A program made the translations under genes and the position numbers. DNA of 64,000 bases from Sipunculus nudus. Lineage: Eukaryota > Annelida > Sipuncula > Golfingiida > Sipunculidae. Below, piece by piece: positions 1 through 59,802 of the stretch; positions within the stretch are counted from its first letter, which is position 1; every line of letters begins with the position of its first letter. The notes under the pieces are model-generated. The model had not been told where the DNA came from and did no database searches. It saw nothing but the letters and a program-made list of their open reading frames with translations. The stretch is from contig CM049314.1 of assembly GCA_026874595.1 (NCBI GenBank), positions 51,195,812-51,259,811 of the forward strand. Reading direction: 5' to 3'.

Positions 1-1175
1 TAGCTTTATAACATACATAAAAAATGGTGGTGCCACCTGCAATCATTTTTGCACAGCGTCTGTCTGTTTGTCTGTTGAGGCCTAAAATCACTCATTTCTC
101 TGTAGTGGTTTGACATAACTGCCTAAAGTTTTGCAGGTTTATACATCCTGGACAGCTTTCTTGATTTTATGACAGGTGGCGCCACCTAAAATCTAGTTAA
201 CGCTGCACACATCCAAGCTCATATCTCAGGAACAGTTTGACTGATTGGGCCAAAATTGTCTATGTGTTTAGATCTCACATAGGTCTTTATCATACAAAAC
301 TGGAGTTGCCACCTGCAACCATTTTTGCACAGCGTCTGTCTGTTTATTGCCATGGGATAATGTCACTCATATCTCGTCAGTGGTTTGACGTATCTGCCTA
401 AAATTTTGCAGCTTTATACATCCTGGATAGCTTTCTTGATTTTATGACAGGTGGCGCCACCTACATTCTAGTTTACACTGCAGACATCCAAGCTCATATC
501 TCGGGAACCGTTTGAACGATTGGGCCAAAATTTTGCATGTGTATAGATCTCACATAAGTCTTTATCATACACAAAACTGGAGGGGCCACCTGCAACCATT
601 TTCGCAAATTTTGCACAGCTTCTGTCTGTTTGTCTACTGAGGCCTAAAATCACTCATTTCTCTGTAGTTGTTTGACATGACTGCCTAAAATTTTGCAGGT
701 TTATGCATCCTGGACAGCTTTCTTGATTTTATGACAGATGGCGTCACCTAAATTGTAGTTAACGCTGCACACATCCAAGCTCATATCTCAGGAACCCGTT
801 TGACTAATTGGGCCAAAATTGTGTATGTGTTTAGATCTCACATAGGTCTTTATCATACACAAAACTGGAGGGGCCACCTGCAACCATTTTTGCACAGCGT
901 CTGTCTGTTTGTCTGCCGTGGGCTATAATCACTCATACACATGTAGTGGACATTTCTGCCTAAAATTTTGCATATGTATACAACTTGAACAGCTTTCTGG
1001 ATTTGTAGTAGGTGGCACAACCTACATACACATTCAGGCTGCAGACATTCATGCTAATATGCAACATACCTCACTCTATTTCCCCTTGCCACTCAATCCA
1101 TGCCTCACTTCACCCATTCCACTCTGATTTTGGCGGATACACATAGTCACTTGTGGGCTACCCATGTTCTAGTTT
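1..1175 (+). repeat. family C repeat, 5' end cut by window edge
   Basis: It has about four core units of ~280 bp with GCCACCTGCAACCATTTTTG, followed by the family C 3' end: ATGCTAATATGCAACA, GGCGGATACACATAGTC, a degraded hairpin, and TTCTAG near 1170. The 5' head TATCCGCCAAAAC is not in the window. Confidence 0.85.
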
Positions 1176-1176
1176 T

Positions 1177-1353
1177 TAAAGTTTACACATTTTTTCTCTA
1201 TTTATAGATATATAAATACAGACCTAATCTTGGCCTGTTGGTTAATCTGTTTGATGCTTCAGTTGAATGAGTATATACTACCATTCTGATGATAAAATTT
1301 CCTTTTGTGAATCTCTTCCCAGTCAGCTGAGCGTCATGACCCATGGGTCACTT
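1177..1353 (+). repeat. family A 3' end fragment
   Basis: It carries CAGATGATAAAATT-like sequence (also at 38020) and ends AGTCAGCTGAGCGTCATG, the palindrome TGACCCATGGGTCA, and CTTGTT (1321-1352). It directly follows a family C 3' end. Confidence 0.75.
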
Positions 1354-1661
1354 GTTTACATATGGCTGGGCATTTACAATGGGTTGCTTTCAAATAACAT
1401 GTATTCAAGAGTTCATATAATTATCTTATAATTTCTACTAGAAATGCCCCAATGACGATCATTAAGGTTTCAAAATATAAAAGAACAGAAATAATTAAGA
1501 TCTCCATTATCATTAGGCTTTCTGTAAATGACACACAGTATAAGAAAGTTGTGTAGGTATCTGGATGATATAGGCGCTTGTAATATCATTTAAACATGTG
1601 ATTGTAGTGCTAGTTTATAGCACTCTTGGCTGCGCAAGGTCTAGAATACCCCCATCAGTTT

Positions 1662-1800
1662 AAGTAATAGTAATAGTAATAGTAATAGATACCCCAGTAA
1701 TAGTAATAGTAATAGTAATAGATGATAAAATGTGGTAATAGTAATAGTAATAGTAATATCAGAAATTGAAAGTAATAGTAATAGTAATAGAACACCCGTA
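1662..1800 (+). repeat. interrupted (TAATAG)n microsatellite
   Basis: Runs of TAATAG separated by short unrelated stretches (GATACCCCAG, ATGATAAAATGTGG, ATATCAGAAATTGAAAG). The interruptions differ from one another. Confidence 0.9.
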
Positions 1801-1804
1801 ATAG

Positions 1805-6700: not shown

Positions 6701-6957
6701 TCAGTGTGAAATTGGGCATATGTATACATCTCTGATAGCTTGGTTGTATACAAGACTGGTGGTGCCAGCTACAACAATTTTTGTGTTGTGTGCACCCATG
6801 CTAGAATTTCAGCAGTGATGTTTGTGTGATTTTTTTTATTCAAAATGTTTAGTACTTGCATTGTTCATATACATGAAAAGTAATGGTCCAGCATTAAAGC
6901 ATTATACCTGGTGTATTTCCCAATGCACAGGTTCGCATTAGGCCTGTAGGCCTTGTT
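3791..6957 (+). repeat. family B Helentron-like element, near complete
   Basis: The head TTTTTGCAAACCTGTGAGC is a slightly altered form of TTTTTAGCGAACCTGTGAGC and is followed by GTCCGTCGTCTGTCGTCCGTC. The 3' end at 6926-6957 is CACAGGTTCGC (reverse complement of the 5' GCGAACCTGTG), ATT, the hairpin AGGCCTGTAGGCCT and TGTTT. The interior has repeated segments with GTCACATGAGTCAT, GGTGGTGCCACCTGCAT and a TTCACTCAGTGCAGCCAGGT mini-repeat at 5940-6350. There is no open reading frame typical of Rep/helicase, so it is non-autonomous. Confidence 0.82.
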
Positions 6958-11423: not shown

Positions 11424-14400
11424 TTTTAGCGAACCTGTGAGCTTATGCAATGGTGTGGCGTTGTCTGTCGTTCGTCGTCCGTACGTTAACCATAGCTAAG
11501 TCAAAAACAGCAGTAGCTAGCATCACCAAATTTTTTGCAAATAATCAGTCATCTGAAAAACTATCAGATTTTGTTTATTTTTTTTCTAACTGCATTTTCT
11601 TAGATTTTTTAGATTTAAAAAAAATCTTCTTCTCCAAAACTGTCCAGCCAAGTTGTCCCATATTTCACAGAAATGATCCCTGGAACAATCTCTCTCAAGT
11701 TTGTTAGTCATCTGTCCAAAAAAGCACACTAAGATTAAAATCTCAGAAACGGCTAGAGCTATAATCACCAAATTTAATGCCAGTGTTGGTCACATATGTC
11801 ATTTCTGATTTTGAGGTATTGGTGGGGCCACCTACATTGATGTGTTTTTTACAAGCTTATATACACTGATTTATGATGAAACTGTTAAGCTGATTGGTTT
11901 AAACTTTACAAGAATTATTCTATGGTAGGGTTCTGCCAGTTTTATAAGAATAGATTGGGTAAATACAGTTTTAAAAAAGCATTGTAGCCAATTAAAAAAG
12001 GCTTTCTGTATTTGAAAACAGATTTGAGAACATGCTGAGTTGCAGCAGCCAAGTCAAGAGGTCACTCAGTACAAACAGGTGGGGTCCAGACATCACCATG
12101 GCAACTGACCTGGCTCGGGGGGGGGGGGGGGGGGGGGGGTGTCTAGACAATGTATCTAGATGTCTAGACACAGCGTCTAGACGTCTGGATACAATGTTTA
12201 GATGCAGAATTCCCAGATTAATGGAACTATATCTTTCAACTGTTTGAAAAAACTTGGTTTGCATTTTAAGCAAATCGGGTTTATCATCAGGTCACATGTG
12301 AACTGCTGTGCCTTCATTTTTGGTTGACATCTGACCTTTCCTTGCTGCCCAGTGTCCATTTGTGCGTCTATTTCCACACATAAACCCACATATCTCGGAA
12401 ACCGTTTGACCGATCAGGCTAAAAATTTTGCACAAATTTAGCCCTTTGATAGCTTTATAACATACACTAAAAATGGTGGCGCCACCTGCAACCATTTTTG
12501 CACAGCACCCATTTGTTCATCTGCCTTGGGATAATATTACTCATATCTCAGCAGTGGTTTGACTTATCCACCTGAAATTTTGCAAGTTTATACATCCGGG
12601 ACAGCTTTCTCGATTTTATGACAGGTGGCGCCACCTACATTCACATTTACGCTGCAGACATCCAAGCTCATATCTTGGGAACCGTTTGATCAATTAGGTC
12701 AAAATTTTGCATGTGTCTAGATCTCACATAGCTCTTCATCATAGGCAAAACTGGTGGTGCCACCTGCAACCATTTATGCACAGCGTCCATCTGTTCATCT
12801 GCCTTAGGTTAAAAAATCACTCATATCTCAGCAGTGGTTTGACTTATCCACCTGAAATTTTGCAGTTTTATACATCCTGCACAGCTTTCTCGATTTATGA
12901 CAGGTGGCGCCACCTACATTCACATTTACTCTGCAGACATTCAAGCTCATATCTCGGGAACCGTTTGACCAATTAGGCCAAAATTTTGCTTGTGTATAGA
13001 TCTCACATAGCTCTTCATCATAGGCAAAACTGGTGGTGCCACCTGCAACCATATATGCACAGCGTCAATTTGTTCATCTGCCTTGGGATAATATTACTCA
13101 TATCTCAGCAGTGGTTTGACTTATCCACCTGAAATTTTGCAGGTATATACATCCTGCACAGCTTTCTCGATTCATGACAGGTGGCGCCACTTACATTCAC
13201 ATTTACTCTGAAGACATTCAAGCTCATATCTCAGGAACTGTTTGACAGATTAGGCCAAAATTTTGCATGTGTCTAGATCTCACATAGCTCTTCATCATAG
13301 GCAAAACTGGTGGTGCAACCTGCAACAATTTATGCACAGCGTCCATCTGTATATCTGCCTTAGGTTAAAATCACTCATATCTCAGCAGTAGTTTGACTTA
13401 TCCACCTGAAATTTTGCAGGTTCATACATCCTGGACAGCTTTCTCGATTTTATGACAGGTGTCACCACCTACATTCACATTTACTATGCAGACATTCAAA
13501 CTCATATCTCGGGAACTGTTTGACCAATTAGGCCAAAATTTTGCATGTGTCTAGATCTCACATAGCTCTTCATCATAGGCAAAACTGGTGGTGCCACCTG
13601 CAACCATTTATGCACAGCGTCCATCTGTTCATCTGCCTTAGGTTAAAAAATCACTCATATCTCAGCAGTGGTTTGACTTATCCACCTGAAATTTTGCAGG
13701 TTTATACATCCTGCACAGCTTTCTCGAGTTATGACAGGTGGCGCCACCTACATTCACATTTACTCTGCAGACATTCAAGCTCATATCTCGGGAACCGTTT
13801 GACCAATTAGGCCAAAATTTTGCATGTGTCTAGATCTCACATAGCTCTTCATCATAGGCAAAACTGGTGGTGCCAACTGCAACCATTTATGCACAGTGTC
13901 CACCTGTCATCTGCCATAGGTTAAAATCACTCATATCTCAGCAGTGGTTTGACTTATCCACCTGAAATTTTGCAGGTTTATACATCCTGGACAGCTTTCT
14001 CGATTTTATGACAGGTGTCGCCACCTACATTCACATTTACTATGCAGACATTCAAGCTCATATCTCGGGAACTGTTTGACCGATTGGGCCAAAATTTTGC
14101 TTGTGTATAGACCTCACATAGCTCTTCATCATAGGTAAAACTGGTGTTGCCACCTGCAGCCATTTATGCACAGCGTCCATCTGTTCATCTGCCTTGGGAT
14201 AATATTACTCATATCTCAGCAGTGGTTTGACTTATCCACCTGAAATTTTGCAGGTTTATACATCCTGGACAGCTTTCTCGATTTTATAACAGGTGGCGCC
14301 ACCTACATTCACATTTACTATGCAGACATTCAAGCTCATATCTCAGGGAACCGTTTGACCGATTAGGCCAAAATTTTGCTTGTGTATAGATCTCACATAG

Positions 14401-17400
14401 CTCTTCATCATAGGCAAAACTGGTGGTGCCACCTGCAACCATTTATGCACAGCATCCATCTGTTCATCTGCCTTAGGTTAAAAAATCACTCATATCTCAG
14501 CAGTGGTTTGACTTATCCACCTGAAATTTTGCAGGTTTATACATCCTGCACAGCTTTCTCGATTTATGACAGGTGGCGCCACCTACATTCACATTTACTC
14601 TGCAGACATTCAAGCTCATATCTCGGGAACCGTTTGACCAATTAGGCCAAAATTTTGCATGTGTCTAGATCTCACATAGCTCTTCATCATAGGCAAAACT
14701 GGTGGTGCCAACTGCAACCATTTATGCACAGTGTCCACCTGTCATCTGCCATAGGTTAAAATCACTCATATCTCAGCAGTGGTTTGACTTATCCACCTGA
14801 AATTTTGCAGGTTTATACATCCTGGACAGCTTTCTCGATTTTATGACAGGTGTCGCCACCTACATTCACATTTACTATGCAGACATTCAAGCTCATATCT
14901 CGAGAACCGTTTGACCGATTGGGCCAAAATTTTGCTTGTGTATAGACCTCACATAGCTCTTCATCATAGGTAAAACTGGTGTTGCCACCTGCAGCCATTT
15001 ATGCACAGCGTCCATCTGTTCATCTGCCTTGGGATAATATTACTCATATCTCAGCAGTGGTTTGACTTATCCACCTGAAATTTTGCAGGTTTATACATCC
15101 TGGACAGCTATCTCGATTTTATAACAGGTGGCGCCACCTACATTCACATTTACTATGCAGACATTCAAGCTCATATCTCAGGGAACCGTTTGACCGATTA
15201 GTCCAAAATTTTGCTTGTGTATAGATCTCACATAGCTCTTCATCATAGGCAAAACTGGTGTTGCCACCTGCAACCACTTATGCACAGCATCCATCTGTTC
15301 ATCTGCCTTTGGATAATATCACTCTTGTCTCAGCAGTGGTTTGACTTATCCTCCTGAAATTTTGCAGGTTTATACATCCTGGACAGCTTTCTCGATTTAT
15401 GACAGGTGTCGCCACCTACATTCACATTTACACTGCAGACATCCAAGCTCATATCTCGGGAACCATTTGACTGATTGGGCAAAAAGTTGCACGTGTATAG
15501 ATCCCACATAGCTCTTCATCATAGGCAAAACTGGTGGCGCCATCTGCAACTTCTTATGCACAGCGTCCATCTGTTCATCTGTCTTTGGATAAAATCATTT
15601 ATTTCTCACCAGTGGTTTGACTTATCCACCTGAAATTTTGCAGGTTTATACATCATGGACAGGTTTCTTGATTTTATGACAGGTGGCGCCACCTACATTC
15701 ACATTTACTCTGCAGACATCCAAGCTCATATCTCAGGAACCATTTGACTGATTAGGCCAAAATTTTGCATGTGTCTAGATCTCACATAGCTCTTCATCAT
15801 AGGCAAAACTGGTGGTGCCACCTCCATTTATGCACAGCGTCCATCTGTTCATCCGCCTTGGGATAATATTACTCATATCTCAGCAGTGGTTTGACTTATC
15901 CACCTGAAATTTTGCAGGTTTATACATCCTGGACAGCTATCTTGATTTTTTAACAGGTGGCGCCACCTACATACACATATTTACTATGCAGACATTCAAG
16001 CTCATATCTCGGGGAACCGTTTGACTGATTGGGCCAAAATTTTGCTTATGTATAGATCTCACATAGCTCTTCATCATAGGCAAAACTGGTGGTGCCACCT
16101 GCAGCCATTTATGGACAGCGTCCATCTGTTCATCTGCCTTGGGATAATATTACTCATATCTCAGCAGTGGTTTGACTTATCCACCTGAAATATTGCAGGT
16201 TTATACATCCTGGACAGCTATCTTGATTCTATAACAGGTGGCGCCACCTACATTCACATTTACTATGCAGATATTCAAGCTCATATATTGGGGAACCGTT
16301 TGACCGATTGGGCCAAAATTTTGCTTGTGTATAGATCTCACATAGCTCTTCATCATAGGCAAAACTGGTGGCGCCACCTGCAACCACTTATGCACAGCAT
16401 CCGTCTGTTCATCTGCCTTTGGATAATATCACTCTTGTCTCAGCAGTGGTTTGACTTATCCACCTGAAATTTTGCAGGTTTATACATCCTGGACAGCTTT
16501 CTCGTTTTATGACAGGTGGCACCACCTACATTCACATTTACACGGCAGACATCCAAGCTCATATCTCGGGAACCATTTGACTGATTGGGCAAAGAGTTGC
16601 ACGTGTATAGATCCCACATAGCTCTTCATCATAGGCAAAACTGGTGGCGCCATCTGCAACTACTTATGCACAGCGTCCATCTGTTCATCTGCCTTTGGAT
16701 AAAATCGCTCATATCTCAGCAGTGGTTTGACCTATCCACCTGAAATTTTGCAGGTTTATACATCATGGACAGTTTTCTTTTTTATGACAGGTGGCGCCAC
16801 CTACATTCACATTTACTCTGCAGACATTCAAGCTCATATCTCAGGAACCATTTGACTGATTAGGCCAAAATTTTGCATGTGTATAGATCTCACATAGCTC
16901 TTCATCATACGCAAAACTGGTGGTGCCACCTGCAACCATTTATGCACAGCGTCCATCTGTTCATCTGCCTTGGGATAAAATCACTCATATCTCGGCAGTG
17001 GTTTGACTTATCCACCTAAAATTTTGCAGGTTCATACATCCTGGACAATTTTCTCGATTTTATGACAGGTGGCACCACCTACATTCACGTTTAAGCTGCA
17101 GACATCCATGCTAATATGCAACACAGCACGCTGTTTTCCCCTTTCCACTTAATTCATGCCTCACTTCACCTGTCCCACTCAGATTTCTGCGGATACACAT
17201 AGTGGCTTGTCGACTACCCTTTTTCTGGTTTTAAAATGCCCTAGTCCGAAACTTGCAGGTCAGAAACGTCCATTTGGCTGAAATCATAATGACTAAGATA
17301 GATATGCAGGACTTAGGAGGATCAATATTAAATTTTAAAAATAAACCTCCATTCATACTCCTAAACTTTGCACAGGTTCGCATTAGGCCTGTAGGCCTTG

Positions 17401-19398: not shown

Positions 19399-22300
19399 AT
19401 TAGCTCAGCTGACTATAAGTCATCTGAGCTATAGTCGTGGTCCATTGTCCGTCGTCCGTCCGTCTGTCTGTCCGTCCTTCCGGCCGTCCGTCCGTCCGTC
19501 TGTCCGTCTGGATGTCCGTCCGTAAGACTGGCACGTTTCGACACTGTTGGACCTATGAATCTGAAATTGGGCATACAGTTAGATGTCCCTAAAATCTCCT
19601 ACCATGCTGAAAATTGGGTCAATAGGACTTCGTTCCTTCGAGATATTGAGGAAAAACCTCAATTTTTTATTAGAAATCTATTTTCACACTTCAGGACTGC
19701 CTTATATCAAAACCACTCATCTAGTTTTCTTCATATTTACCATAAATATTCCTCTATATAGTTTCTATGTACATGCCAGATATTAAGTCAGTATTATATA
19801 ATTTAAAAAAGTTATGGGCCCAAACATAATGGACTTTGTAAAAAAATCAGGAAGATATTTGGTCACTTAAGACCAAAAGTGTTAAAGGTAGGGACTTTTT
19901 TCCAGTAATACAACTTTAATTAATCGAAATTAAATTGTATACCAAAAATTAGATCAAAATCTGGTAAATTTTTTTAAATATTGGCAAAAATATAAAATTG
20001 GTACCTTAAATTTTGCCCAACTTAGGCCACGGCACATTTTTTTCCTGTAAGTACTGTGGATTTAATTTTCACAGCATGTATACATAAGGATTTAATCTGT
20101 TAAAATCTGTATTTTGAAAATAAAAGCTGCAAAATTAGGCTAGTTATTGAATTTTTTTGGAGGCTCTTGTTGTATTCCCTTACATTGTCAAGCAGTCCAC
20201 TTTGATGACTGTAGGTCATTCAGTGCACATCTCTATGCTCCCCAGGCTGTTGGCATAATTTTAGATGTCCCAAAAATCTCCTACCATACCAAAAATTTGG
20301 TCATTAGGACTTGGTTCCTTCGAGATATTAAGGAAAAAAACTGTGTTTTCCATAAAAAAATCTATGTTACACTTCAAGGCTGCCTAATATCAAAACCACT
20401 GATCTGTTTTTGATTGTATTTAGTATTCACTTTCCTTCATACATTTTCTATGAACATACCAAAAATTAGGTCAGTCTTGGGTATTATTTTGAAGTTATGG
20501 GGCAAAACATAATGCAATTTTTTAAAAAATCAGGAAATATATTTACTCACCTAACATGAGAATTGCTGAACCTAGAGACTTTTTTTCAGGAATATAACTT
20601 TATTTAATCAAGATTCAAGTGTTTACCCAAAATTAGATCTGAATTTTGCAAATTTTTCAAGTTATTAGCTTAATAAAAAAAAATCAATACCTTAAATTTT
20701 TGTCCAATTTTGGCACTGTTGATTAAATTTTCACAGCATATATACATAAGGATTTAATATTTTAAAATCTGAAATTTAAAAGAAATTGATTGGAAAGAAT
20801 AGCTTTTATTCATGTTTTCATACACCATGTCAAGTGTTGTTTACATCTAGCCCACCTAGTAGTACAGCCTTCACTTGCATTATGTAACCCACCCCAGGCA
20901 GCTTGCCTTGGGTCAGCTTGGCCACTACCAGCAGGCTTCTCCTCTGCCCTGCACTCCCAGTAATAAATTAAAACTTGGATAGTAATTAGCACAATGATAT
21001 TGTTTGTCCCTCATTCAACCAAAAGTGTGTGACCTTATTTGAAAAGATGTTTTATTTTATCAAATTTACTGAATCTTTTATTTTATTTTGGTGAATAAAA
21101 TTAAGCATGTACTGAAAACTCCAGTGTGCAAAACTTTTAAACAGTGATTCAAGGAATATTCTTCTAGATGCCATGTTTTGGCATTATTTTCTTTTAAATT
21201 CAGTTTAAACATTTATGATTTAAAAATAATAAAATATATGTGTATGCATAATATGACCCAATATGAGCTACACTCTGGATATATGATGGTTGCAACTTTT
21301 GCAACAATTCTGATATTTTAACTTATAGTTTCAGTTTTTTACTCTGTATATATAATGATTGCAACTTTTGCAACAATTCTAATATTTTAACTTATATTTT
21401 CAGGTTTTTTTATTAAAAATTTATAAAACCTGTAAATAAAAGAATGATTCAGATATAAACTTCTTAATGGAAAAAGTGGATATGCTTAAAAAAATAGGAT
21501 TATATATAAAATTAAATGCATTATTCCCTTGAAAGTGAAATAAAGGTATTAGTCCATTCTGTCAACTTGCCTGTCCATCTGTAAATTTTCATATGCATCA
21601 CAGTATCTCAAAACTTTTACTGTTTTTCTTCATGACAGTTTTGTCAGAGTATTTATTGCAATCATATATTTAGAACTTTACTGTAACCAAGTAGGAGGGC
21701 CCCTTTCCTCTTAGCTTTTCATATTCTTATATAAATGAAAAACATTACAATAGAACATTTCTACATCCACCTTTGTGCTGCCCTCACTTTTCCCTTCTCC
21801 GAAACCCCTTTCCAAAGTCAGCCTCAGTAAGCAAGAACAAGATGAATCAGATATATTCATACTTTAATATTTTGTATAACTATTTGTCCATAGGTACCTA
21901 TGTACATGCCAGAAATTATGTCAGTATTGTGTAATATGTAGACACAGTAGGCATCACAATAATGTACCTTGTCAAGACTAAAGAGATATTGTGTCATACA
22001 GTCACAAATTCATGAATCACTTCATCAGCATAGTTAATCATAACATCATATCTGTCAAATTGAAAGCTTGCAGACTACAAACACTTTAGATCCTTCAACA
22101 AATAGCCTTATCATCATTGTACTACTGCTTATTACTGCTGTCATTGCATTCATATTTGCTCAAATATATCACAATTTTCAACCCCTCCTAAAAAAATAAA
22201 AAATAAACCACTATATTTGACTATTAATCCATCAGTCAGGTAATTTCATTTATCATTTACTCACATATAACATTAAATTCCTTTATAATAGCCCAACATG

Positions 22301-35322: not shown

Positions 35323-38300
35323 GCTCAGCTGACTGTCATCTGTTAGCATGGCACAAATCGTAACAACTGGACCTAGAATCTTCATTCTTGACACACTGAG
35401 AGGTCCATGAAAAATATCCTTGGAAACCAGAAATTAGGTCTCTGTTAACCATATCCTTCGAGCTATGGGGCCCCAAAGTACCCCCCCCCCAGAGTAGTAA
35501 AGAATTTCATACAAAAACTTCAATATCTCATTAACTACATCACTGATGGTCATGATTTTTGGCATACATATTGATTATGAAATGTTCCATCAGTTCCTGC
35601 AGACTTGTGGCGCCACCTGTATTGTTTGATTTTTTACGATTTTTTCCTCTATTTTTGAGACCTTTAAGGATGCTGTCATCTGTTAACGTGGCACAAATCA
35701 TAACGACTGGACCTAGAATCTTCATTCTCGACACACTGAGAGACCTATGAAAAGTCTCCATGGAAACCAAAATTAGGTCTCTGTTACCCATATTCTTCGA
35801 GCTATGGAGCCCTAAAGTACCCCCAAGAAAAGTAAAAAATTTCATACAAAAGCTTCAATATCTCATTAACTACTTGAATGATGGTCATGATTTGTGGCAT
35901 AACTAATGATCATGAGATGTGTCATCTGTTCCTGCAGACTGGTGGCACCACCTGTATTGTTAGATTTTTTACGATTTTTTCCTCTATTTTTGAGACCTTT
36001 AAGGATGCTGTCATCTGTTAGCATGGCACAAATCGTAACGACTGGACCTAGAATCTTAATTCTCAACACACTAGAAGACCTATGAAAAGTCTCCATGGAA
36101 ACCAGAAATTAGGTCTCTGTTACCCATATCCTTCGAGCTATGGGGCCCCAAAGTACCCCCCCAGAGTAGTCAAAAATTTCATACAAAAACTTCAATATCT
36201 CAATAACTACATCACTGATGGTCATCATTTTTGGCATACATATTGATTATGAGATGTTCCATCAGTTCCTGCAGACTGGTGGCGCCACCTATGTTATCTA
36301 TCAAGAGGGTACAAATTGCAACAACTGGACCTAGAAACTTCATTCTTGTCATGCAAGGAGGCCCATGAAGAGTGCCTGTGGAAACTTGAAATTAGGTCTC
36401 TGTTACCCATATCCTTCAAGCTTTAGGACTCTGAAGTATCCCTCAGAATAATGGACAATTTGATACAAAAGCTGAAGTATCTGAACAACTAATACGGAGA
36501 TCATCATGATTCTTTGCATGGATAATGACCATTAAGTGTTTTTAGCTCAGCTGACTGTAAGTCATCTGAAGTATTCCTCAGAATAATGGACAATTTGATA
36601 CAAAAGCTCAAGTATCTAAACAACTATTGCAGTGATCACCATGATTCTTTGCATGGATATTGATCATGGAATGTGTCATCAGTTTCTGCAGTATGGTGGC
36701 GCCACCTGTATTTTTTTTATTTTTACGAATTTTTTTCTCTATTTTTGAGACCTCATAAGATGCGGTCATCTGTTAACATGGCACAAATCGTAACAACTGG
36801 ACCAAGAATCTTCTCTCTTGACATGCTGAGAGGCCCATGAAAAGTTTCCTTAAAAACTTGAAATTAGGTCTCTGTTACCCATAACCTCTGAGCTATGGGG
36901 CTCCGAAGTACCCCCCAGAATAATGGAAAATTTGATACAAAAGCTCAAGTATCTGAACAATTATTATATTGATCACCATGATTCTTTGCATGGATATTGA
37001 TCATGAAATGTTTCATCAGTTTCTGCATTCTTGTGGCGCCACCTGTATTTTTTAATTTTTAGCTCAGCTGACTGAAAGTCATCTGAGCTGTAGGGATCAC
37101 CTTTTGTCCGTCGTCTGTCCGGCCATCCAGGCGTCTGTCTGTTAACAGGGCACAAATCGTAACCGCTAGACCGGAAATCTTCTTACTTGAAATCCTGGGA
37201 GGTCTATGGAAATTCTCCTTGTAAACCTGAAATTAGGTCACTGTGACCTATATTCTTCGAGCTATGGGGTTCTGAAGTACCCCCCAGAATAATGCAAAAT
37301 TTAATACAAAAGCTCAAGTATCTGAACAACTAATGCATTAATCACCATGATTCTTTGCGTGGATATTGATCATGGAGTGTTTCATCAATTTCTGGAGATT
37401 GGTGGCGCCACCTATATTTTTTTTATTTTTTACGATTTTTTTTCTCTACTTTTGTGATCTTTAAACATTTGGTCATCTGTAAACAGGGCACAAATCATAA
37501 TGACTGGACCTAGAATCTTCTGTCCTCACCCCCAGGGAAGCCCATAAAAGGTCTACATGGAAACCCGAAATAAGGTCCCTGTTACCCATATTCTGTGAGC
37601 TATGGGACTCTGAAGTACACCCCAGAATAAAGATTTGGTCATATATTAACAGAGCACAAATTATAATGACTTGACCTAGAATCTCCTTTCTTGATATGCT
37701 GGGAGGCCCCTGAAAAGTCTCCTTGTGCACCTGAAATTACATCTCTGTTACCCATATCCTTCATCCTATGCGGCTTTGAAATACCCCCCAGAATAAACAT
37801 TTGGATTTGTTAACAAGGCACAAATCATAATAACTGGACCTAGATTTTTATTTTTTGACATGCTGGGACACCCCTGAAAAGTCATCTTGTAAACCTTGAA
37901 AATAGGTGTCTGTTACCCATATCCTTCATGCTACAGAGCTCCATAGTACCCCAATGAATATTGGATGATTTTATACAAAAGGTCAAGTTTGGAAAAAGTA
38001 TTTCATTCAAATTTTACATTCAGATGATAAAATTACTTTTGTCAATGTCTTCCTGGTCAGCTGAGCGTCATGACCCCTGGGTCACTTGTTACTTATTTTT
38101 TTCCCTTTTTTAGCCCTCAGCCCTTAGGCTGATGGGTTATTGTCGTCACCCAAGCTGTCCGTCCGTCCGTCCGTCTGTCCGTCTGGCGTCCGTTAACTTT
38201 TACCTTGTGAGGGGGATATCTGGAAAAGGATTCACCGCCAGAATTTTATTTCCTCGGTAAAGATGTATATCGACAAAATCTCGGTCAAGTTCGAAGATGG

Positions 38301-40022
38301 GTGACCTTGACCTATTTTTCTACATTTTAGAGCTGATTATAGAAAAACACTTAGATGCTTATTACTCAGGAACCATTTGGTGGATTTTCACAAAACTTAC
38401 TTTGATTATTGGGACTTATAGTCTGTACCTGCTACACAAGTTTGGTGGTGCCACCTACAATTTCTGATTTTTATTGAATTTTTATCGGATTTTTCAATTT
38501 TGGGCTTGTGAGTGGGATATCTCAAAAAGGATTCACCGTAGGAATTTTATTTTTTTCGGTGAAGATGTATATTGACAAAATCTCAGTCAAGTTCAAAGAT
38601 GGGTGACCTTGACCTATTTTTCTACGTTTTAGAGCTGATTATAGAAAAAAACATTTAGAAGCTTATTTCTCAGGAACCATTGGGTGGATTTTCACAATAC
38701 TTACTATGATCATAGGGACTGATGGTCTGTAACTGCTGCACAAGTTTGGGGGTGCCACCTACAATTTCTGATTTTTAATGAATTTTTCTTGGATTTTTCA
38801 ACTTTGGCCTTGTGAGCGGGATATCTCTAAAAGGATTCAAAAAAGGAATTTTATTTCTTTGGTGAAGATGTATAATTACAAAATCTCGGTCAAGTTCAAA
38901 GATGGGTGACCTTGACCTACTTTTCAAGGTCACAGAGCTTATAATAGAATAAAACTTAGAAGCTTATTTTTCAGGAAGCATTTGGTGGATTGTTATGAAT
39001 CATGGTACATACCTCTCCATTTTAAATTTATAACTGAGAAATGTACAGATATACATCCATGTCAGAACAGATATTTAGTACTTGTTACTGTTACCACCTT
39101 TAAACACTGTTCTTTTGGCTGAGGGCTTTTGTCAGCTTCTGCTGATATTCTAGTTTCAGACCTGCAATGAAACTGTCATCTGTTAACAGGGCACAAATCG
39201 TAACCACTGGACCTGGAATCTTCAAACTTAATATCCATGCAGGAAGGTCCATGAAAAATCTCCTTAAAAACCTGAAATTAGGTCTCTGGTACCCATATCC
39301 TTCAAGCTATGGAGCTCTGAAGTACCCCCCCCCCAGAATAATGCAAAATTTGATACAAAAGCTCAAGGATCTGAATAACTACTGCATTGGTCACCATGAT
39401 TCTTTGCATGAATATTGATCATGGAATGTTCCATCACTTCCTGCAGATTGGTGCCGCCACCTGTATTTTTTCCAATTTTTACAAATTGTTTTCTCTTTTT
39501 TCAGACCTGCAATGAAACTGTCATCTGTTAACAGGGCACAAATCGTAACCACTGGACCTGGAAACTTCAAACTTAATATCCAGGGAGGTCCATGAAAAAT
39601 CTTCTTGAAATCCTGAAATTAGGTCTCTGTTACCCATATCCTTCAAGCTGTGGGGCTCCGAAGTACCCCCCCCCCCCCCCCCAGAATAATGCAAAATTTG
39701 ATACAAAAGCTCAAGTATCTGAATAACTACTGCATTAATCACCATGATTCTTTGCATGAACATTGATCATGGAATGTTCCATCACTTCCTGCAGATTGGT
39801 GCCGCCACCTGTATTTTTTCCAATTTTTCCAATTTTTTTACTCTTTTTTTCAGACCTGCAATCAAACTGTCATCTGTTAACAGGGCACAAATCATAACCA
39901 CTAGACTTGGAATCTTCAAACTTAATATCCAGGAGGTCCATGAAAAATCTCCTTGAAAAACTGAAATTAGGTCTCTGTTACCAATATTCTCTGAGCTATA
40001 GGGCTTCTAAATACCCCCAAGA
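35323..40022 (+). repeat. array of ~335-bp units with embedded family A heads
   Basis: Units begin CTGTCATCTGTTAACATGGCAC at 35333, 35673 and 36008 and recur through 39.9 kb. Each has ACAAATCGTAACNACTGGACC, GAAATTAGGTCTCTGTTACCC, a short C-run in AAGTACCCCCC, ATCATGATTCTTTGCATGG, and GACTGGTGGCGCCACCTGTATTTTTT. Family A heads (AGCTCAGCTGACT) sit at 35324, 36544 and 37061, and a family A 3' end (GACCCCTGGGTC, CTTGTT) at 38049-38089, so this is a family A subtype with internal tandem units. Confidence 0.82.
38111..39154 (+). repeat. family E Helentron-like element, complete (1.04 kb)
   Basis: The head TAGCCCTCAGCCCTTAGGCTGATGGGTT folds (CAGCC/GGCTG) and is followed by GTCCGTCCGTCCGTCTGTCC. The body is three ~300-bp units with CAAGTTCAAAGATGGGTGAC and CTTGACCTA. 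The 3' end GGCTGAGGGCT (reverse complement of the head), hairpin TCAGCTTCTGCTGA and TATTCTAG is followed by TT. It interrupts TTTTTTCAGACCTGCAATGAAACTG, which is uninterrupted at 39500. Confidence 0.88.
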
Positions 40023-40023
40023 A

Positions 40024-40840
40024 TAATATATCCGCCAAAACAGAGTTTTGCTGAGCGGAATTTTACGAAACCCTGGATTATGTTCGAGTCACGTGAACTG
40101 CTGCGCCCAGATTTTGTTTTGACCTCTGACCTTTCCTCTGCGCTCTGCATCAGTCTGTGCTTCTGTTATGACACATTAACCCATATATCTCGGGAACTGT
40201 TTGACCAATCCGAGAAACATTTTTTGCCCAAATGTAGCCCTTGGATAGCTTTATAACATACATAAAAAATTGTGGCGCCACCTGCAACTATTTTTGCACA
40301 GCGTCCATCTGATTGTCTGCCATGGGATTCACTCATATCCCTGCACTTGTTTGACTTATCTGCCTAAAATTTTGCAGGTTTATATATCTTTGAGAGCTTT
40401 CTAGATTTTATGACAGGTGTCGCCACCTACATTTACATTATGCTGCTGACATCCAAGCTTATATCTCGGGAACAGTTTGGCCAATTGGGCCAAAATTTTG
40501 CATGTGTATAGATCTCCCATAGCTCTTTATCATACGGAAAACTTTTGGTGCCACCTGCAACCATTTTTGCACAGGTCCGTCTGTTTGTCTGCCGTGGGGT
40601 AAAATCACTCATATCTCAGCAGTGGTTTGACTTTTTGCATTTGTATACAACTTTGATAGCTTTCTGGATTTTGTGGTAGGTGGCACAATTACATACACAT
40701 TTCGGCTGCGGACATCCATGCTAATATGCAACACACCTCACTCTATTTCCCCTTGTTACTCAATCCATGCCTCACTTCACCCGTCCCACTCTGATTTCGG
40801 CGGATACACGTAGTCGCTTGTCGACTACCAATATTCTAGT
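40024..40840 (+). repeat. family C Helentron-like element, complete (0.8 kb)
   Basis: The head TATCCGCCAAAACAGAGTTTTG (stem CAAAAC/GTTTTG) is followed by AAATTCCGC-type text on the other strand and TTTTGACCTCTGACC. One and a half ~280-bp units follow. The 3' end is GGCGGATACAC, hairpin GTAGTCGCTTGTCGACTAC and ATATTCTAG, then TT. It interrupts AGAATAATGCAAAATTTGATAC of the surrounding array. Confidence 0.88.
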
Positions 40841-40967: not shown

Positions 40968-43900
40968 TTTTTAGCGAACCTGTGAGCTTATGCGATGGTG
41001 CGGTGTCCATCGGTCGGTGTCTGTACATTAACCCATACTACCTTGAAAACAGCAAAAGTTAGCATCACAAAATTTTATGCAAAAAATTAGTCATCTAAAA
41101 AACTCTATCGGTTTTTGCTTATTTTTTGTCTCTGCATTTTCTTAGATTTTATAGGGAAAAAGCTAAAAAAGCTTTAAAAATCTTCTTCTCCGAAACTGTT
41201 CAGCCAAATTGTCCAGTATTTCACAGAAATGACTCCTGGAACATTCTCAAGTTTGTTCGAATGCTTTAAATTTGGTGATTTTTGGCTGAGTTACAGGAAG
41301 TTGAACTAAGTCATCTGTCCAAAAAAGCATACTGTTTTACAATCTAAGAAACAGCTGGAGCTATCATCACCAAATTTTATGTCAATGTTGGTCACATGAG
41401 TCACATCTGAAATTGAGGTATTGGTGGCGCCACCTGCGTCGGCCTTTGTTGTAAGGTGTCATCAGTGCCTGTATCACACGGAGGGTTTCTTCTCTGAAAC
41501 CATATGGGTAAAATGTTTAAAATCGCACAGAAACGATCCTAGGGTAGTGCTTTCTGAAGTTTGTTCAAGTGGTCTCTTTTCAGTGACTTTTGGCTAAGTT
41601 ATGGGAAGCTGAAATGAGTCATATGCCATAACAGCCCATTTTAGCTCAGTGGCTACAAAGATCTTCTTCTCAAAAACCACTTGGCCAAATTCTTAAACCT
41701 CACAAATTAATTATCCTCAGATGTTGATAATTCAAGTTTGTTCAAAAGGTTTTGGTTCAGTGCTTTTTGGCTGAGTTACAGGAACCTGAACTTAGCCAGT
41801 TTGCTGTATCTTCCTATATGAGTTATAAACCTGGGAAACGTTTTTCGACTGATGCCACTGAAGCCAGTTTGTTAAATATTTTACAAGAATAATCCCTACA
41901 ATAATTCTTATAATAATTGTCATTCATGGTTCCACGTGAATGATTTTTGGCTGAATTATGGAGATTGAATTGAGTCATTTTACCATATATGTTAGCTGTG
42001 TTATGCTGTTACATCTAGCCTGGCACCAGTTCCTCAGCATCCATTGCATCATGCCACTAGACATTTAGATTTCAGGTTATCTTTGGTTAATATTGACAAG
42101 AAAGTTTTTTTAAAAGCTTTTAAAAAATTTAGATTTATGATTTTAGTTATTCATCATACCAGGCAGTCATGGATATTCAGCAATAGCAGGAGCTACCAGC
42201 CCCAGATTTTATGCAATAAATGTTGTGGGATTCAGCTTATTTTTTTGTTATCTGCATTTACTTGTATTTTATAGGGAAAAAGCTGAAAAACCTTTAAAAG
42301 TCTTCTTCTTGTAAACGGTCCAGCCAAATTGTTCAATATTTTACAGAAATGATCCCAGAGGCAAGCACTCTTTGTTCAAATGGTTTGCTTTGATTAATTT
42401 TTGTCACACAAATTTGAACGTAGTCATTTGGCCAAGTAAGCATACTGACATAGTTATCTCAGAAATGAAAAAAGCTAGCATCACCAAGTATTGTGCAAAT
42501 GTTGGTCACATGACTCATATTTGAAGTTGCAGATTTAGAGGTGCCACCTACATTGACCTTTTCTTTGGGCAAAAACCTCATAATTTCAGCCTCTTTCAGC
42601 TTAAAATGTTTATGATGAAACTGTCAAGTTGAATCTTTTAATTTTTTTAAAGAATTATCCTAGGACATGGTTCTTTCAATCATATCAGAATAGATTGAGT
42701 TTGTTGATTTTTGGTTGAGTTGTGAAAAGCTTAATTTGGTTTTATGGCCATTATTATGTCTTTTTCAAACTGAGGACTGCAATAGTGTTCTTCTACAAAA
42801 TTATTGTTTCAATGATAACTTCTTTAACATTTGACAAAAATTATTGTTAGGCCTTTGTTCAAGTTTACTTGAATGATTTTTGGCAGGATTATTGGACCTT
42901 TAACAAGGAAAGGACTGCATCTTTTATTATTCTAGATATTTTGATAAAAAGTTTATGAATATGTTAGCTTGAAAAAAAAGCATTTTAGCCAAAGTCTTTC
43001 AGTATGTGTAAACAGATTTACCAACAGGCCAAGATTGTGTCTGTATCTTTAAATAGGTTGAGATACTGCCAACTGTTTCAGATTTGGCAACAGATTAAGA
43101 GTTCATTTAATGCAGCCAAGCACAAGGCATGTTATCACCTCACGGGTGACATGTGAACACCTCATGGGCACCATGTGATCACATCATTGGTAGCATGTGA
43201 TCACCTCATGAGTATTATGTGATCACCTTATGTGTGTCATGCCCCTCAGGGCTGCATGTGGAGCAAATCTATGAGCTTATGCAATGGTGTGGCTATCATT
43301 TCAGATTTGGCAACAGGCCAAAGGTCAGTCTGGATCTATTAATAGCTTTGGCAGACTGGCAACTGTAACAGATTAGGCTAAAGGTCAAGAGTTCACTCAG
43401 TGCAGCCAGGTACAGGTCAAAAGTTCACTCAGTGCAGTAGCTGCATTCTATATACTGTGGAAGTGGTTTTGTTAGTGGGGGTTTTATTTTCGTGCTTTTC
43501 GCGGGAGCATGATCTGCGCTAAGTTAAGAACACAGGTTATTTCGAACACCCTAGACATGCCCATTAAGTTAATGTTTTTACTGTCAGGTGCCAGCACTAT
43601 CGTTAGATACAAGTAAAGAGTAATGGCGAATTGAATAGACGATTCTGTGTCACATAGATCATTAATGTTTAATGGGGCACTGAGAAATTAAACACAACAC
43701 TGTTTTTATATATAAAATTCATTTTGTATGCAAAAAAGTCTAGTGTTTTCATCGTTATTTTGGTATGTGACCTGGCAGTGCTTGGCAGGTTGTGATGTTG
43801 CTGGCTGATCGATGCTATCGTTGGCCACTTGGAAGACTGCGGGTTTCTCACCTGACACACAGTCACTTGAGTCTCAGAATCCCTCATTGCAGTATAGCTT

Positions 43901-46408: not shown

Positions 46409-47605
46409 AACTAGAACAAGGGTAGTCGACGTTGTCGACTACCTGTATCCGCCTAAATCAGAGTGGAACGGGTGAAGTGAGGCATGGATTGAGTGGCAAG
46501 GGGAAATAGAGTGAAGTGTTGCATATTAGCATGGATGTCTGCAGCCAAATGGTGAATGTAGGTTGCGCCACCTACCACAAAATCCAGAAAGCAGTCCAAG
46601 TTGTATACATATGCAAAATTGGAGGCAGATAAGTCAAACCACTATATGTTTATGAGTGATTTTAGCCCGTGGCAGACAAACAGATGGTCGCTGTGCAAAA
46701 ATGGTTGAAGGTGGCGCCACCAGTTTTGCGTATGATAAAGAGCTATGTGAGAACTATACACATGCAAAATTCTGGCCCAATCGGTCAAACAGTTCCCAAG
46801 ATATGAGCTTGGATGTCTGCTGCATAAACTAGAATGCAGGTGGCGCCACCTGTCATAAAATCAAGAGAACAGTCGGGGATGTATAAACCTGCAAAATTTT
46901 AGGCAGATATGTCAAACCACTGCCGAGATATGAGTGATTTTATCCCATGGCAGACAAACAGACGGGAGCTGTGCAAAAAATGGCTGTAGGTGGTGCCACC
47001 AGTTTTGCATATGATAAAGAGCTATGTGAGATCTATACACATGCAAAATTTTGGCCCAATCAGTCAAACGGTTCCCGAGATATGAGCTTGGATGTCTGCA
47101 GCGTAAACATGAATGTAGGTGGCGCCACCTGTCATAAAATCAGAAAAGCTATCCAGGATGTATACGCATGCCAAATTTCAGGTGAATTAGTCAAATCACT
47201 GCAGAGATATGAGTGATTTTAACCCAAGGCAGACGAACAGATGGACACTGTGCAAACATGGTTGCAGGTGGCGCCACCATTTTTTGTGAATGTTATAAAG
47301 CTCTCCAAGGGCTACATTTGTGCAAAAAATTTTCCTGATCCGTCAAACGGTTCCCGAGATATGTGGGTTTATGTGTGGAAACGGACGCACAAATGGACGC
47401 AGAGCGCAGAGGAAAGGTCAGAGGTCAAAACAAAATCGGGGCGCAGCAGTTCACATGTGACCCGAACATAATCCCGGGTTTCGTAAAATTCCGCCAAGCG
47501 GTTACGGAGGAGTTCTCCGGACACCTACGCCGCGGCGGCGGTGGCAGCAGCGGCGTGCAGCTGAAAACATAGTATCCGCAAAACTCTGTTTTGGCGGATA
47601 CAATT
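46409..47605 (-). repeat. family C element, complete, inverted (1.2 kb)
   Basis: Read on the minus strand it starts at 47605 with TATCCGCCAAAACAGAGTTTTG, runs through two and a half ~280-bp units with GGTGGCGCCACCT, and ends GGCGGATACAGGTAGTCGAC, AACGTCGACTACC and TTCTAG at about 46411. It is the only clear minus-strand member in the window. Near the 5' end a CGGCGGCGG stretch (47530) breaks the homology. Confidence 0.88.
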
Positions 47606-48044: not shown

Positions 48045-49715
48045 ATGCCCCCGCCACAAAGTGGCCAGGGCATATAGTTTTACCCATGTCCGTCATTCCG
48101 TCCTTCCGTCCTTCCGTCATTCCGAAATCAAACAGTTGTAAGGACTTTTTTGGCTATGCCTGCAGATATTGGCCTGATTTTTGGAGTGTGTGCAGATAAT
48201 GACCAGTTACAGATCGAGTTTGCGTTTCGTCCCGGTTGACCTACTTTTGACCGTTTTACGGCTCCTTAACTTAGAAAATTTCATAAAAAATAGAAATTTT
48301 CATGACAAATACACATGTACAGACTTTTTTTCGCAATGCCTGCAAATATTGGCCTGATTTTTGGTGTGTATGCAGATATTGACCAGTTACAGATCAAGTT
48401 CGCGTTTCATCCCGGTTGATGTACGTTTGACCGTTTTATGGCTACTTAACTTAGAAAATTTCATTAAAATTAGAAATTTTCATGACAAATACTTATGTAT
48501 GGACTTTTTTTTGCAATGCCTGCAGATACCGCCCTGATTTTTAATGTGTAGGCAGATAATGACCAGTTACAGATCGAGTTCGAGTTTCGTCCCGGTTGAC
48601 CTACTTTTGATTGTTTTATGGCTCCTAAACATAGAAAATTTCATGAAAAATATAAATTTTCATGACAAATGTACATGTACAGCTGTTTTTAGCCCTCAGC
48701 TCATAGGCTGATGGGCTATTGTCGTCAACCAAGCTGTCCGTCTATCCGTCCGTCCATCTGTCTGTCTGGTGTCCGTCTGTCCGTCCGTTCCAAGTCTGTT
48801 AACTTTTACCTTGTGAGCGGGATATCTCTAAAAGGATTCACCGTTGGAATTTTATTTTATCAGTGAAGATGTTTATCAATAAAATCTCGGTCAAGTTCGA
48901 AGATGGGTGACCTTGACCCATTTTTCTACATTTTAGAGCTGATTATAGAAAAACACTCAGAAGCTTATATCTCAGGTACCATTGTGTGGATTTTTCACAA
49001 AACTTACTATGATCATTGGGACTGATGGTCTGTACGTGCTGCACAATTTTGGTGGCGTCACCTGCAATTTCTGATTTTTTAATGAAATTTTATCAGATTT
49101 TTCAATTTTGGCCTTTTGTGCAGGATATCTCCAAAGGTATTCACTTAAGGAACTTCATTACTTCAGTGCTTTTGCATCATATTTACAAAATCTTGGTCAA
49201 GTTCAAAGATGGGTGGTCTTGACCTACTTTTCAAGGTCACAGAGCTTAGTATAGAAAAAAACTTAGGGGGATATTTCTCAGGAAGCATTTGGTGGATTGT
49301 TATAAAACATGGTACATACATGGTACATACCTCTCGCAATGCAATGCTTACAGATACTGGTCCAATTTTGGTCTGTGGGCGCATAATGACCACTTACAGG
49401 TCGAGTTCGCGTTTCATCCCAGTTAACCTATTTTTGACCATATGACAGATCCTGAACATAGAAAATTTCATGAAAGACAGAAATTTTTATGAAAATTGCA
49501 CATGTATGGACTTTTTTTCACAATGCCTGCATACTGGCCTGATTTTTGGTGTGTTCCTTGATAATGACCCGTTACAGATCGAGTTTGCATTTTGCCTTTC
49601 TTGACCTACTTTTGACCATACAACACCCCCTGTACTTAAAAAAATTTTACAAAATTTAACAAATGTTTCTAATTTGCCCCAGGCGGGGGCATTCGTGTCG
49701 TACCGACACATCTAG
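48045..49715 (+). repeat. family D element carrying a truncated family E insert
   Basis: The head ATGCCCCCGCCACAAAGTGGC and 3' end GGCGGGGGCAT, hairpin GTGTCGTACCGACAC and ATCTAG define the outer element. After ~640 bases of ~185-bp units the sequence changes at 48690 to a family E head. Family D text returns at about 49334 (GCAATGCAATGCTTACAGATACTGG). Confidence 0.85.
48690..49333 (+). repeat. family E element, 3' truncated, inside family D
   Basis: TAGCCCTCAGCTCATAGGCTGATGGGCTATTGTCGTC begins the copy, followed by a GTCC/GTCT tract and two to three units matching 38210-39025. It stops after a doubled ATGGTACATAC and lacks GGCTGAGGGCT and the terminal hairpin. Confidence 0.85.
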
Positions 49716-57616: not shown

Positions 57617-57620
57617 ATTT
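57545..57620 (+). repeat. 76-bp direct repeat, copy 1 (B1)
   Basis: Identical to 57828-57903. It contains the end of the recombinase frame and an AATAAA at 57578 that could serve as a poly(A) signal. Confidence 0.95.
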
Positions 57621-57827
57621 ACAATTTGAAATTGTAGTCACACAAACAATTAAACTGCATGTGCTGCCGCCTGCAGCGGTCAGCTGCACTTTGTAAGCGC
57701 CAGGTCACTTACGGTAATTTATTCATGCTAGGTGCTAAGTGGTAACATATTAATCATATTTATCATAGATTAATGACCAGGCTACCTAGGTTAAGACGGT
57801 TCGGTGATGGTGAAGCACTGGGCATGG
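57621..57827 (+). repeat. 207-bp segment between the repeats (candidate A2)
   Basis: Non-coding, with the potential stem GCTGCCGCC..CAGC near 57663. In PAT-type elements this segment should recur at the 5' end; no such copy was seen upstream of gag. Confidence 0.6.
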
Positions 57828-57903
57828 ATAAGGCACATTGTAATTTATTTTTATGTTATAAATAAATTATATACTGTTTACTTGTTTGTTGTGACGTAGA
57901 TTT
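57828..57903 (+). repeat. 76-bp direct repeat, copy 2 (B2)
   Basis: All 76 bases equal copy 1. It is the probable right end of the element; similarity stops at GATTT (57903), after which GCTGAAAGATCG is unrelated to the text after copy 1. A second AATAAA lies at 57861. Confidence 0.9.
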
Positions 57904-58155
57904 GCTGAAAGATCGTGTTAATAATATACATCTTATGTTCACAATGCTTTAATTTTAACATTATGAAATGCATGGTTTGGTCACAAAATATTATTTGCAA
58001 CATTTTCTTACTAATCAGTACAAAACAATCCTGTCAACCAGCCATGGCCTATATTACCTTTTCCTCTTTGACTTTATCTCCATTTCATATTATTTTAGAT
58101 TTTTACATTCAAGGTCAACTTCAGTTGAGCACAGTGACCCATGGGTCCCTTGTTT
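57904..58155 (+). repeat. family A 3' end downstream of the retrotransposon
   Basis: AT-rich text ends CAGTTGAGCACAGTGACCCATGGGTCCCTTGTTT at 58122-58155. Bases 53466-53560 (CCTGTAAGCATTGTTGAATTAA) look like family A interior, so the retrotransposon may sit inside a family A element. Confidence 0.65.
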
Positions 58156-58390
58156 CTATTTACCGGACTCTTTTCCAATGGGTTTAAGTTCTTCAAGTCC
58201 TCAAAATTTTATCATGTGAAAGTTGTACCAGGGCTGCATTGGGAGCGTTGGCAGGCATGATCAAGTGCAACTATGAATTCTCAGCATAACTATTGGAGGA
58301 GTTGTAAAAAGTGACCTTGCTCTTCAGGGTAAAATCTGCACAAATCTATGGTATATGTGCATGAACAAATAACATTTGATTATTGCTTTA

Positions 58391-59802
58391 TAGTGAACCT
58401 GTGAGCTTATGCGATGGTGCAGCGTCGACTGTCCGCCATCCACCGTCGTCCATACGTTAACCCATGCTATCTCAGAAACTGTCAGAGCTAGCAGCTCCAA
58501 ATTACTTGTAAGAATCAGTTACATGTCAAACTTCATCGGATTGAGCATATTTTTTGGGAATCGGCATTAACTTCCATTTTATAGGGAAAAACCTAAAAAA
58601 CTTTAAAAATCTTTTCTCCGAAACTGTCCAGCCAAATTGTCCAATATTTCACAGAAATGATCCCTTGAACAATTTTTCTCAAGTTTGTTGGAATGGTTTC
58701 AGTTCGGAGATTTTTGGCCGAGTTACAGTAGGTTGAACTTAGTCATATATCCAAAAAAAGCACACTCAAATTAAAATCTCAGAAACAGCTGGAGCTATCA
58801 TCACCAAATTTTATGCCAATGTTTGTTACATATGTCACATCTGAAATTGAGGTATTGGTGGTGCCACCTACATTGATCTGTTTTTTACAAGCGAAAATGT
58901 AATTTTAGACTCTTCTAGCTAATACACTGTTTTATGATGAAACAATTAAGCTGATTGGTTTAAACTTTACAAGAATTTATCTATGGTAGGGTTCTGCTGG
59001 TTTTATAAGAATAGATTGGGTAAATGCAACTTTAAAAAGGCAATGTAGCCAAATGAAAAAGGCTTTCTGTGTTTGAAAACAGATTTGACAACATGCTGAG
59101 TTTCAGCAGCCAAGTCAAGGGGTCACTCAGTACAACCAGGTTGGGTCCAGACATTACAATGGCAACTGACCTGGCTCTGTCTGGTTTCTAGACAATGTGT
59201 CTAGACGTCTAGACACAGCGTCTAGATGTCTAGACTCATCGTCTAGATGCAGAATGCCCAGATTAGAACTATTGGAAGTATATCTTTCAACTGTTTGGAA
59301 AAACTTGGTTTGCATTTTTAGTGAATATGTGAGCTAATGCAATGGTGTGGTGTCGTCGGTCTTCTGTCATGAGTCATAGCTTTCTCATAAAGGGCAGGAG
59401 CTAGCATCACCAAATTTTTTGCAAAAAAATTGTCATCTAAAAAATTCTAGTGGATTTTGCATATTTCTTGCCTAACTGCATTTCTTAGATTTTATAGGGA
59501 AGAAGCTAAAAAACATTAAAAAAGGTTCTTTACTGAAACCATGCTGCCAAATTGTCCGTTCATCTGTCCCAATAATCCTCCCTGGCTAAAAGAACATATC
59601 CGAAATATCCTGACTGATACATTCTAGTATTAAAATGTCCTAGTACGAAACTTGCAGGTCGGAAACGTCGATTTTGCTGAAATCAAAATGACTAAGGTAG
59701 ATATGCAGGACACAAGAGGATCAATATTAAATTTAAAAAAATAAACCTCCATTCATACTCCCAAACTTTGCACAGGTTCGCATTAGGCCTGTAGGCCTTG
59801 TT
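58391..59802 (+). repeat. family B element with a second B head nested in it
   Basis: The head TAGTGAACCTGTGAGCTTATGCGATGG is at 58391, and the interior matches 11424-12260, including the cluster of GTCTAGAC palindromes at 59185-59255. At 59316 a second head, TTTTTAGTGAATATGTGAGC, interrupts after TTGGTTTGCATTTT. A family C-like terminus (GATACATTCTAG) is at 59610-59622. The family B 3' end CACAGGTTCGCATTAGGCCTGTAGGCCTTGTTT closes it at 59771-59802. Confidence 0.78.

Follow-up and report, generated by a model that had tools for sequence, protein, structure and literature searches.

The stretch of DNA considered here, called the window, comprises 64,000 nucleotides of the Sipunculus nudus genome (C9:51195812-51259811; the genome has 1.43 Gb in 153 contigs). 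It is populated by copies of six repeat families, A to F, which are often nested together (Table 1). A sequence-only reading of the window had assigned these families to the Helentron-associated transposons with a TT target, and had proposed that one replicase moves them all. The assignment to this class is borne out by the data below, and the single replicase is not. The reading preferred here, at a probability of roughly 0.92, is that A-F are non-autonomous Helentrons (HINEs), with a separate Helentron lineage behind each family and, in each lineage, a protein that recognises its particular ends. No Helentron coding sequence was recognised in the window with two query proteins from one Helentron group, called here the first group (best E 0.43). 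One first-group protein, recovered in two pieces, contains DUF6570, OTU, Rep, PIF1 and endonuclease domains, which are the Helentron set.

What do the six families have in common? The terminal strings first quoted for them are all present in the window, and the shared terminal logic proposed on that basis is real. Subterminal inverted repeats occur in every family, and the 3' ends follow one plan, in which a short inverted repeat precedes a small hairpin and the element closes with CT(A/T)G, next to a T. Family B seemed an exception because its palindrome overlaps CTTG; of the end once read as a palindrome followed by TTG, the palindrome stands, and the complete CTTG brings B into line with the other five families. 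Over the whole genome, the exact 3'-end patterns have 18,717 matches (A 5,572; B 3,865; C 5,381, for a pattern of hairpin plus CTAG that omits the inverted repeat; D 2,170; E 1,645; F 84), and the reversed pattern has none for any family. The following bases were counted by eye among the matches listed, namely the first 100 for each of A-E and all 84 for F. TT comes next after 95/100 ends in A, 95/100 in B, 98/100 in C, 90/100 in D, 87/100 in E and 73/84 in F, i.e., 538 of 584 together, and T after 579 of 584; given the A+T content of the window, TT would be expected after about one end in ten.

The 5' ends hold a feature that had gone unreported, and it is stronger than the 3' hairpin that was noted: in A, C, D, E and F, a hairpin is formed with the 5' repeat as one of its arms. 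When a single copy per family was folded and compared with 200 shuffles, this hairpin had z scores of -5.3 (A), -6.2 (C), -2.8 (D), -4.4 (E) and -5.1 (F), equalled by at most 1 of the 200 shuffles; the B copy showed no 5' hairpin beyond chance (z 0.45). The 3' hairpin alone is unexceptional in A (z -0.8, with another fold preferred) and in F (z -0.25), and scores from -1.4 to -2.4 in B, C, D and E. Folding alone does not lift the 3' hairpin of A above chance; the evidence for it is comparative: at one stem position, 13 of 21 distinct A ends have A-T and the other 8 have G-C, with both sides changed. A window scan for a hairpin before CT[AT]GTT gave 13 sites, of which 3 fall within C repeats, versus 2 in the reversed window, and did not pick up the ends of B, E and F. 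A looser scan that added a paired inverted repeat did no better than its reversed control (10+3 versus 10+2), and an Rfam search at the gathering threshold gave no match. Tandem repeats inside the elements of the window were resolved for four of the six families, with periods of 335 (A), 279 (C), 180 (D) and 304 (E). The central repeats of family C, at window positions 196 and 471 (+) and 46829 (-), contain GGTGGCGCCACC-type hairpins followed by CTAGTT, which mimic the 3' end inside the array.

Do autonomous elements with the same ends exist? The sequence-only reading implied a Rep-helicase element with these termini, and the genome holds two with A termini (A1 and A2) and two with D termini (D1 and D2); the other four families yielded no such element. 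In both cases, the termini bound full-length Helentrons encoding Rep, a PIF1 helicase and a C-terminal endonuclease. A1 (C17:35640361 to 35625479) is 14,883 bp long and A2 (C5:42923483 to 42907358) is 16,126 bp long. On the 3' side, their similarity is 98% across the last 1.7 kb and ends at the A-type CTTG|TTT, ∼1 kb past the gene; on the 5' side, it starts in a T run, 6 bases ahead of the A-type 5' repeat. The first 1.35 kb are 83% identical, with different repeats, and the rest is about 96% identical, and the two do not match each other outside the predicted termini. Both carry two nested 5' ends, as does the A element of the window, whose positions 36565-37740 are 93-95% identical to ∼1.2 kb of the 5' region in both Helentrons. 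The open frame of A1 spans 2,342 codons, and its stop lies 1,020 nt before the 3' end; the protein contains Herpes_teg_N (a tegument-like deubiquitinase), DUF6570, Rep, PIF1 helicase and C-terminal endonuclease domains. The Rep of both A1 and D1 carries the HUH motif. Ends of other families lie within such elements: a family C 3' end sits at the same place within A1 and A2 (joined stretches L020/L023 and L021/L024), a HINE riding in a parent, and a family B 5' end lies at about 643 in L054, an A-lineage Helentron, on the opposite strand.

As for family D, D1 lies on C3 and runs for 12,003 bp from T(n)|ATGCCCCCGCC to CTAG|TTT, enclosing a Rep-helicase-endonuclease gene with an interrupted frame (introns are possible). 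Its domains are DUF6570, Rep and PIF1; the endonuclease match is below the curated cut-off, and tblastn aligns D1 to the endonuclease of first-group Helentrons. The first 1.1 kb are 82-88% identical to the D elements of the window, and the last 55-61 nt are 85-87% identical. A protein search for relatives returned one close copy (94%, its frame also interrupted) and one fragment of 84 amino acids (82%), next to which the sequence read contains no D end. The close copy is D2 (C5:20300944-20313327, 12,384 bp); it starts with T(n)|ATGCCCCCGCC as D1 does, and the 3' similarity of the two (98.6%) stops at CTAG|TTT.

The next question is whether the type of end follows the type of replicase. A survey of the genome gave at least 143 Helitron Rep matches (150 of 195 candidates were scored), several of them in open frames of more than 2,200 codons. 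The 3' side was read for 46 Rep loci: 24 of the A lineage, 14 of the first group, 3 of the D lineage, L031, which is placed differently by its helicase and by its endonuclease, and four loci that lack an endonuclease match (L033, L036, L041 and L053), among which L041 carries an A end. Downstream on the coding strand, 18 of the 24 A-lineage loci carry an A 3' end (17 by the strict pattern, L052 by the tolerant one only), as against none of the 14 first-group loci within the stretches read, beyond which ends may lie; among the D-lineage loci, two have a D 3' end and the remaining one is the fragment. A tree was built from 33 endonuclease segments (34 of at least 90 amino acids were supplied, and L031 was left out); in it, the 15 rows with A ends and five A-lineage rows without them form one supported branch, and the first group forms another. 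The A lineage splits further, with matching variants of the 3' end. Five loci close to A1 (L014, L018, L037, L047 and L049) end in ...GCATCATGACCC... or near-variants at 1,022-1,101 nt past the endonuclease match; six others (L032, L040, L044, L045, L051 and L039) have the G-C version, ...ATGGCC[C/T]ATGGGCCACT(A/T)G, at 528-634 nt; and in the distant L016 and L034 the end reads ...GCGCCGTGACCCATGGGTCCC..., 368 and 283 nt away, respectively. The first-group Helentrons (H11, H7, H4, L013, L017, L019 and others) have long 3' tails with tandem repeats and, as far as they were read, contain no 3' end of types A-F. Two of them, H11 (C11:50376001-50393000) and H7 (C7:31572001-31589000), are 99% identical over 12.7 kb and 97% over a further 4.6 kb, to the edge of the read stretch.

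As the end type follows the replicase lineage, the families are probably served by separate engines, and the protein of one lineage would be expected to refuse foreign ends. The original proposal, that a single replicase mobilises all six families through structure alone, draws on the anatomy common to families of differing sequence, on their frequent nesting, and on the fact that no replicase of their own was found for four of them. It fails to account for A and D ends that sit on replicases with Rep regions only about 33% identical and on separate branches (D being long and unsure), or for the lack of A ends in the first-group loci, and we regard it as unlikely. Could the A and D ends near Rep genes be merely those of neighbouring HINE copies? 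HINEs are abundant, two A ends are present in each of L034, L037, L040 and L050, and the distance from the endonuclease deviates in L046 (1,386 nt), L055 (1,411 nt), L067 (1,191 nt) and L050 (233 nt). However, the paired full-length copies are similar up to their ends and dissimilar outside, the distances are alike within the sub-lineages of five and of six loci given above, and over the 191,742 bases of read stretches 23 A ends are on the coding strand and 1 on the other. Chance proximity is a very improbable account.

The comparison with unoccupied sites, another check proposed in the sequence-only reading, places the insertion of A1 and D1 in T runs at the predicted termini. The joined flanks of A1 match an uninterrupted site ∼97 kb away (C17:35737853-35738022; 90% over 164/164), in which the joint falls exactly between two Ts (T|T) and no base is gained or lost. 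For D1, seven B repeats of the window each align with the joined flanks in one piece, at 72-75% identity and without duplication, the number of Ts being different; the copy at 40981..41221 is 75% identical over 247 aligned columns, and the other six also span the joint. These sites show that insertion goes into a T run without target duplication. Were the families canonical Helitrons (5' TC, 3' CTRR, A|T target), the 3' hairpin and the CTAG of C, D, E and F would be explained, but not the T run and inverted repeat that open the 5' ends, the CTTG of A and B, the T|T target or the C-terminal endonuclease, so that this origin is less credible still. Least plausible of all are cut-and-paste elements akin to miniature inverted-repeat transposable elements (MITEs), which would have inverted repeats near both ends as seen here, since the A1 and D1 sites lack a target duplication, the 3' repeat is internal to the end, ahead of the hairpin, and the parents are of the Rep-helicase type.

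Several observations weigh against separate Helentron lineages for the six families. Six of the 24 A-lineage loci have no A end in the stretch read (L015, L038, L043, L054/L066, L056 and L065), and the outermost stem pair of the A hairpin is broken in 7 of the 21 distinct ends. For A2, no empty site was recovered: the comparison returned the two halves of A2 itself and 39 left-flank matches, some of which reach up to 25 bases past the joint and none of which covers the whole. In the tree, the D branch is long and unsure and sits next to the first group, and the join between groups may be false; D may also have lost its mobility, because the frames of both copies are interrupted. The termini of the first group were not recognised and may fall beyond the stretches read. 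Finally, B, C, E and F have no parent, and their 3' ends are missing from the read stretches of the 46 Rep loci; as for F, none of its 84 exact ends lies within 35 kb of any listed Rep match (at least 143), the nearest being at about 36 kb by eye. Their anatomy suggests that these four families are likewise HINEs of their own lineages, whose parents may have died out, lie outside the loci read or belong to the first group.

How would such elements move? From what is known of studied Helitrons (PMC4778049), Rep would nick the 5' junction next to the 5' hairpin and the helicase would peel one strand off. The 3' hairpin, which acts as a terminator in Helitrons (PMC4778049), would halt the process together with CT(A/T)G, and the strand would then be joined into a nicked T run, with the endonuclease perhaps supplying the target nick. 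HINEs would have retained the ends, their middle being filled with tandem repeats.

Table 1. Family A-F elements, termini and related features of the window.
Feature	Position	Strand	Remarks
Family A HINE	36544..38088	+	5' hairpin/repeat at 36544, second nested at 37061; 3' end CTTG at 38088
Family A HINE, candidate 5'/3' end pairing	19402..22404	+	3' variant GACCCATGGGTCCCTTG
Family A HINE, candidate 5'/3' end pairing	26562..28872	+	
Family A 3' terminus	1324..1354	+	tolerant pattern
Nine further family A 3' termini	starts 3092, 22374, 23288, 28842, 38058, 45443, 45845, 53433, 58122	all +	
Family B 3' terminus	6926..6955	+	others start 8276, 17371, about 33730, 59771
Family B 5' repeat	11429..11439	+	another at 40974
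B-repeat copy, unoccupied site of D-type Helentron on C3	40981..41221	+	one-piece match to joined flanks; 75% over 247 aligned columns
Family C HINE	40029..40839	+	
Family C HINE	46411..47600	-	
279-bp tandem array, family C type	12389..17117	+	flanked by B-related 11424-12270 and 17223-17403
Family D HINE	33804..34975	+	1.1 kb at 82% identity to 5' part of D-type Helentron on C3; last 55 nt 87%
Family D HINE	48045..49715	+	48686-49319 resembles interior of E element
Family E HINE	38112..39153	+	
Family F HINE	24940..26532	+	

Besides these elements, the window contains two long open frames (54540-57616) resembling a reverse transcriptase and a tyrosine recombinase, presumably of a DIRS-like element, and a 33-bp tandem repeat of 12.8 copies (29905-30326) that is open on both strands.

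Another intriguing point is the orientation of the insertions. The window has ten A 3' ends on the + strand and none on the - strand (up to 6 mismatches). Between 0.1 and 68 Mb on contig C1, the first 100 listed places for each of A, B, C, D and E were compared, exact matches only, and these lists reach 23, 21, 15, 47 and 68 Mb, respectively. Pairs from different families share orientation in 130/143 cases when less than 20 kb apart, in 177/215 at 20-50 kb, in 212/324 at 50-100 kb and in 391/630 at 100-200 kb; the fraction is 0.54-0.56 at 200-800 kb and 0.47 at 0.8-1.6 Mb, versus 0.50-0.51 in shuffles. Within family C, the sharing is weaker (11/16). The 283 insertions in the first 14.7 Mb fall into 78 runs versus 141 ± 8 when shuffled, and the longest run, 37/37 over 922 kb, includes all five families, as against a maximum of 19 in 1,000 shuffles. 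As for F, and with contig ends assumed to be telomeres, the insertions face outward in 7/8 cases up to 3 Mb from a contig end, in 9/11 up to 5 Mb and in 12/20 up to 10 Mb, which is the direction expected of forks near telomeres.

What sets these domains? At short distance, part of the sharing comes from local duplication and from nested insertion; at longer distance, it could be due to the strand of genes or to the direction of replication. On the C1 data, host-gene strand, fork direction, inheritance by nested insertion and local duplication are not separable as causes. T20 tracts were considered and set aside: they agree weakly with neighbouring HINEs (58/88 within 50 kb, with 2% of shuffles as high, and 69/109 at 50-100 kb) and show no agreement with each other within 50 kb (8/14). 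A tentative idea, and one that we hold to be possible rather than probable, is that Helentrons pick the target strand by chromosomal polarity, most interestingly by fork direction, so that unrelated families record one map. If true, fork-directed strand choice would be the eukaryotic counterpart of the rule known for IS200/IS605, whose single-strand transposition has an orientation that follows the direction of replication (PMC5371812); those elements are bacterial, and the analogy is limited to the orientation domains. A limited search of the literature, including the available parts of PMC10294476 and PMC12628747, found no Helitron orientation domains. If genome-wide, the local sharing between families would be a direct clue to how these elements choose a strand.

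The class itself is already known, with HINEs described from arthropods (PMC4067079) and oyster (PMC7492417). The HINE/DINE-1 elements and Helentrons of mite, Culex and Drosophila (PMC4067079) share with the families described here the subterminal inverted repeats and the 3' palindrome, a palindromic or inverted repeat at the 5' end (in all families but B), internal repeats (resolved in A, C, D and E), T|T insertion with a variable number of Ts and no duplication, and partner Helentrons with the same ends. The end sequences are different, and the S. nudus genome houses several divergent lineages of the replicase side by side, of which two are tied to their own end type. The likeness extends to the Cg_HINEs of Crassostrea gigas and the bivalve Pearl elements (PMC7492417), with subterminal inverted repeats (11-12 bp in Cg_HINEs) and a 5' inverted repeat (B again excepted), a GTCC-type microsatellite, satellite-like central repeats, a 3' palindrome and TT. 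None of the 10 autonomous Helentrons of the oyster could be related to the Cg_HINEs (PMC7492417), the consulted portion of PMC7992393 reports no evidence of autonomous elements, and the same limited literature search found no parent for a bivalve HINE. The A-type protein, with its Herpes_teg_N domain, resembles the Helentrons with a viral-tegument-like deubiquitinase, whose hosts include molluscs; the available text of that work (PMC9741609) yielded nothing on element ends or non-autonomous partners. Compared with the oyster, two families are here linked to their parents, so that HINEs are tied to autonomous Helentrons, a relation left unresolved for the Cg_HINEs (PMC7492417). These links and the orientation domains are what is new, and because the end type tracks the replicase lineage for two families, others might be assigned to their engines by their ends.

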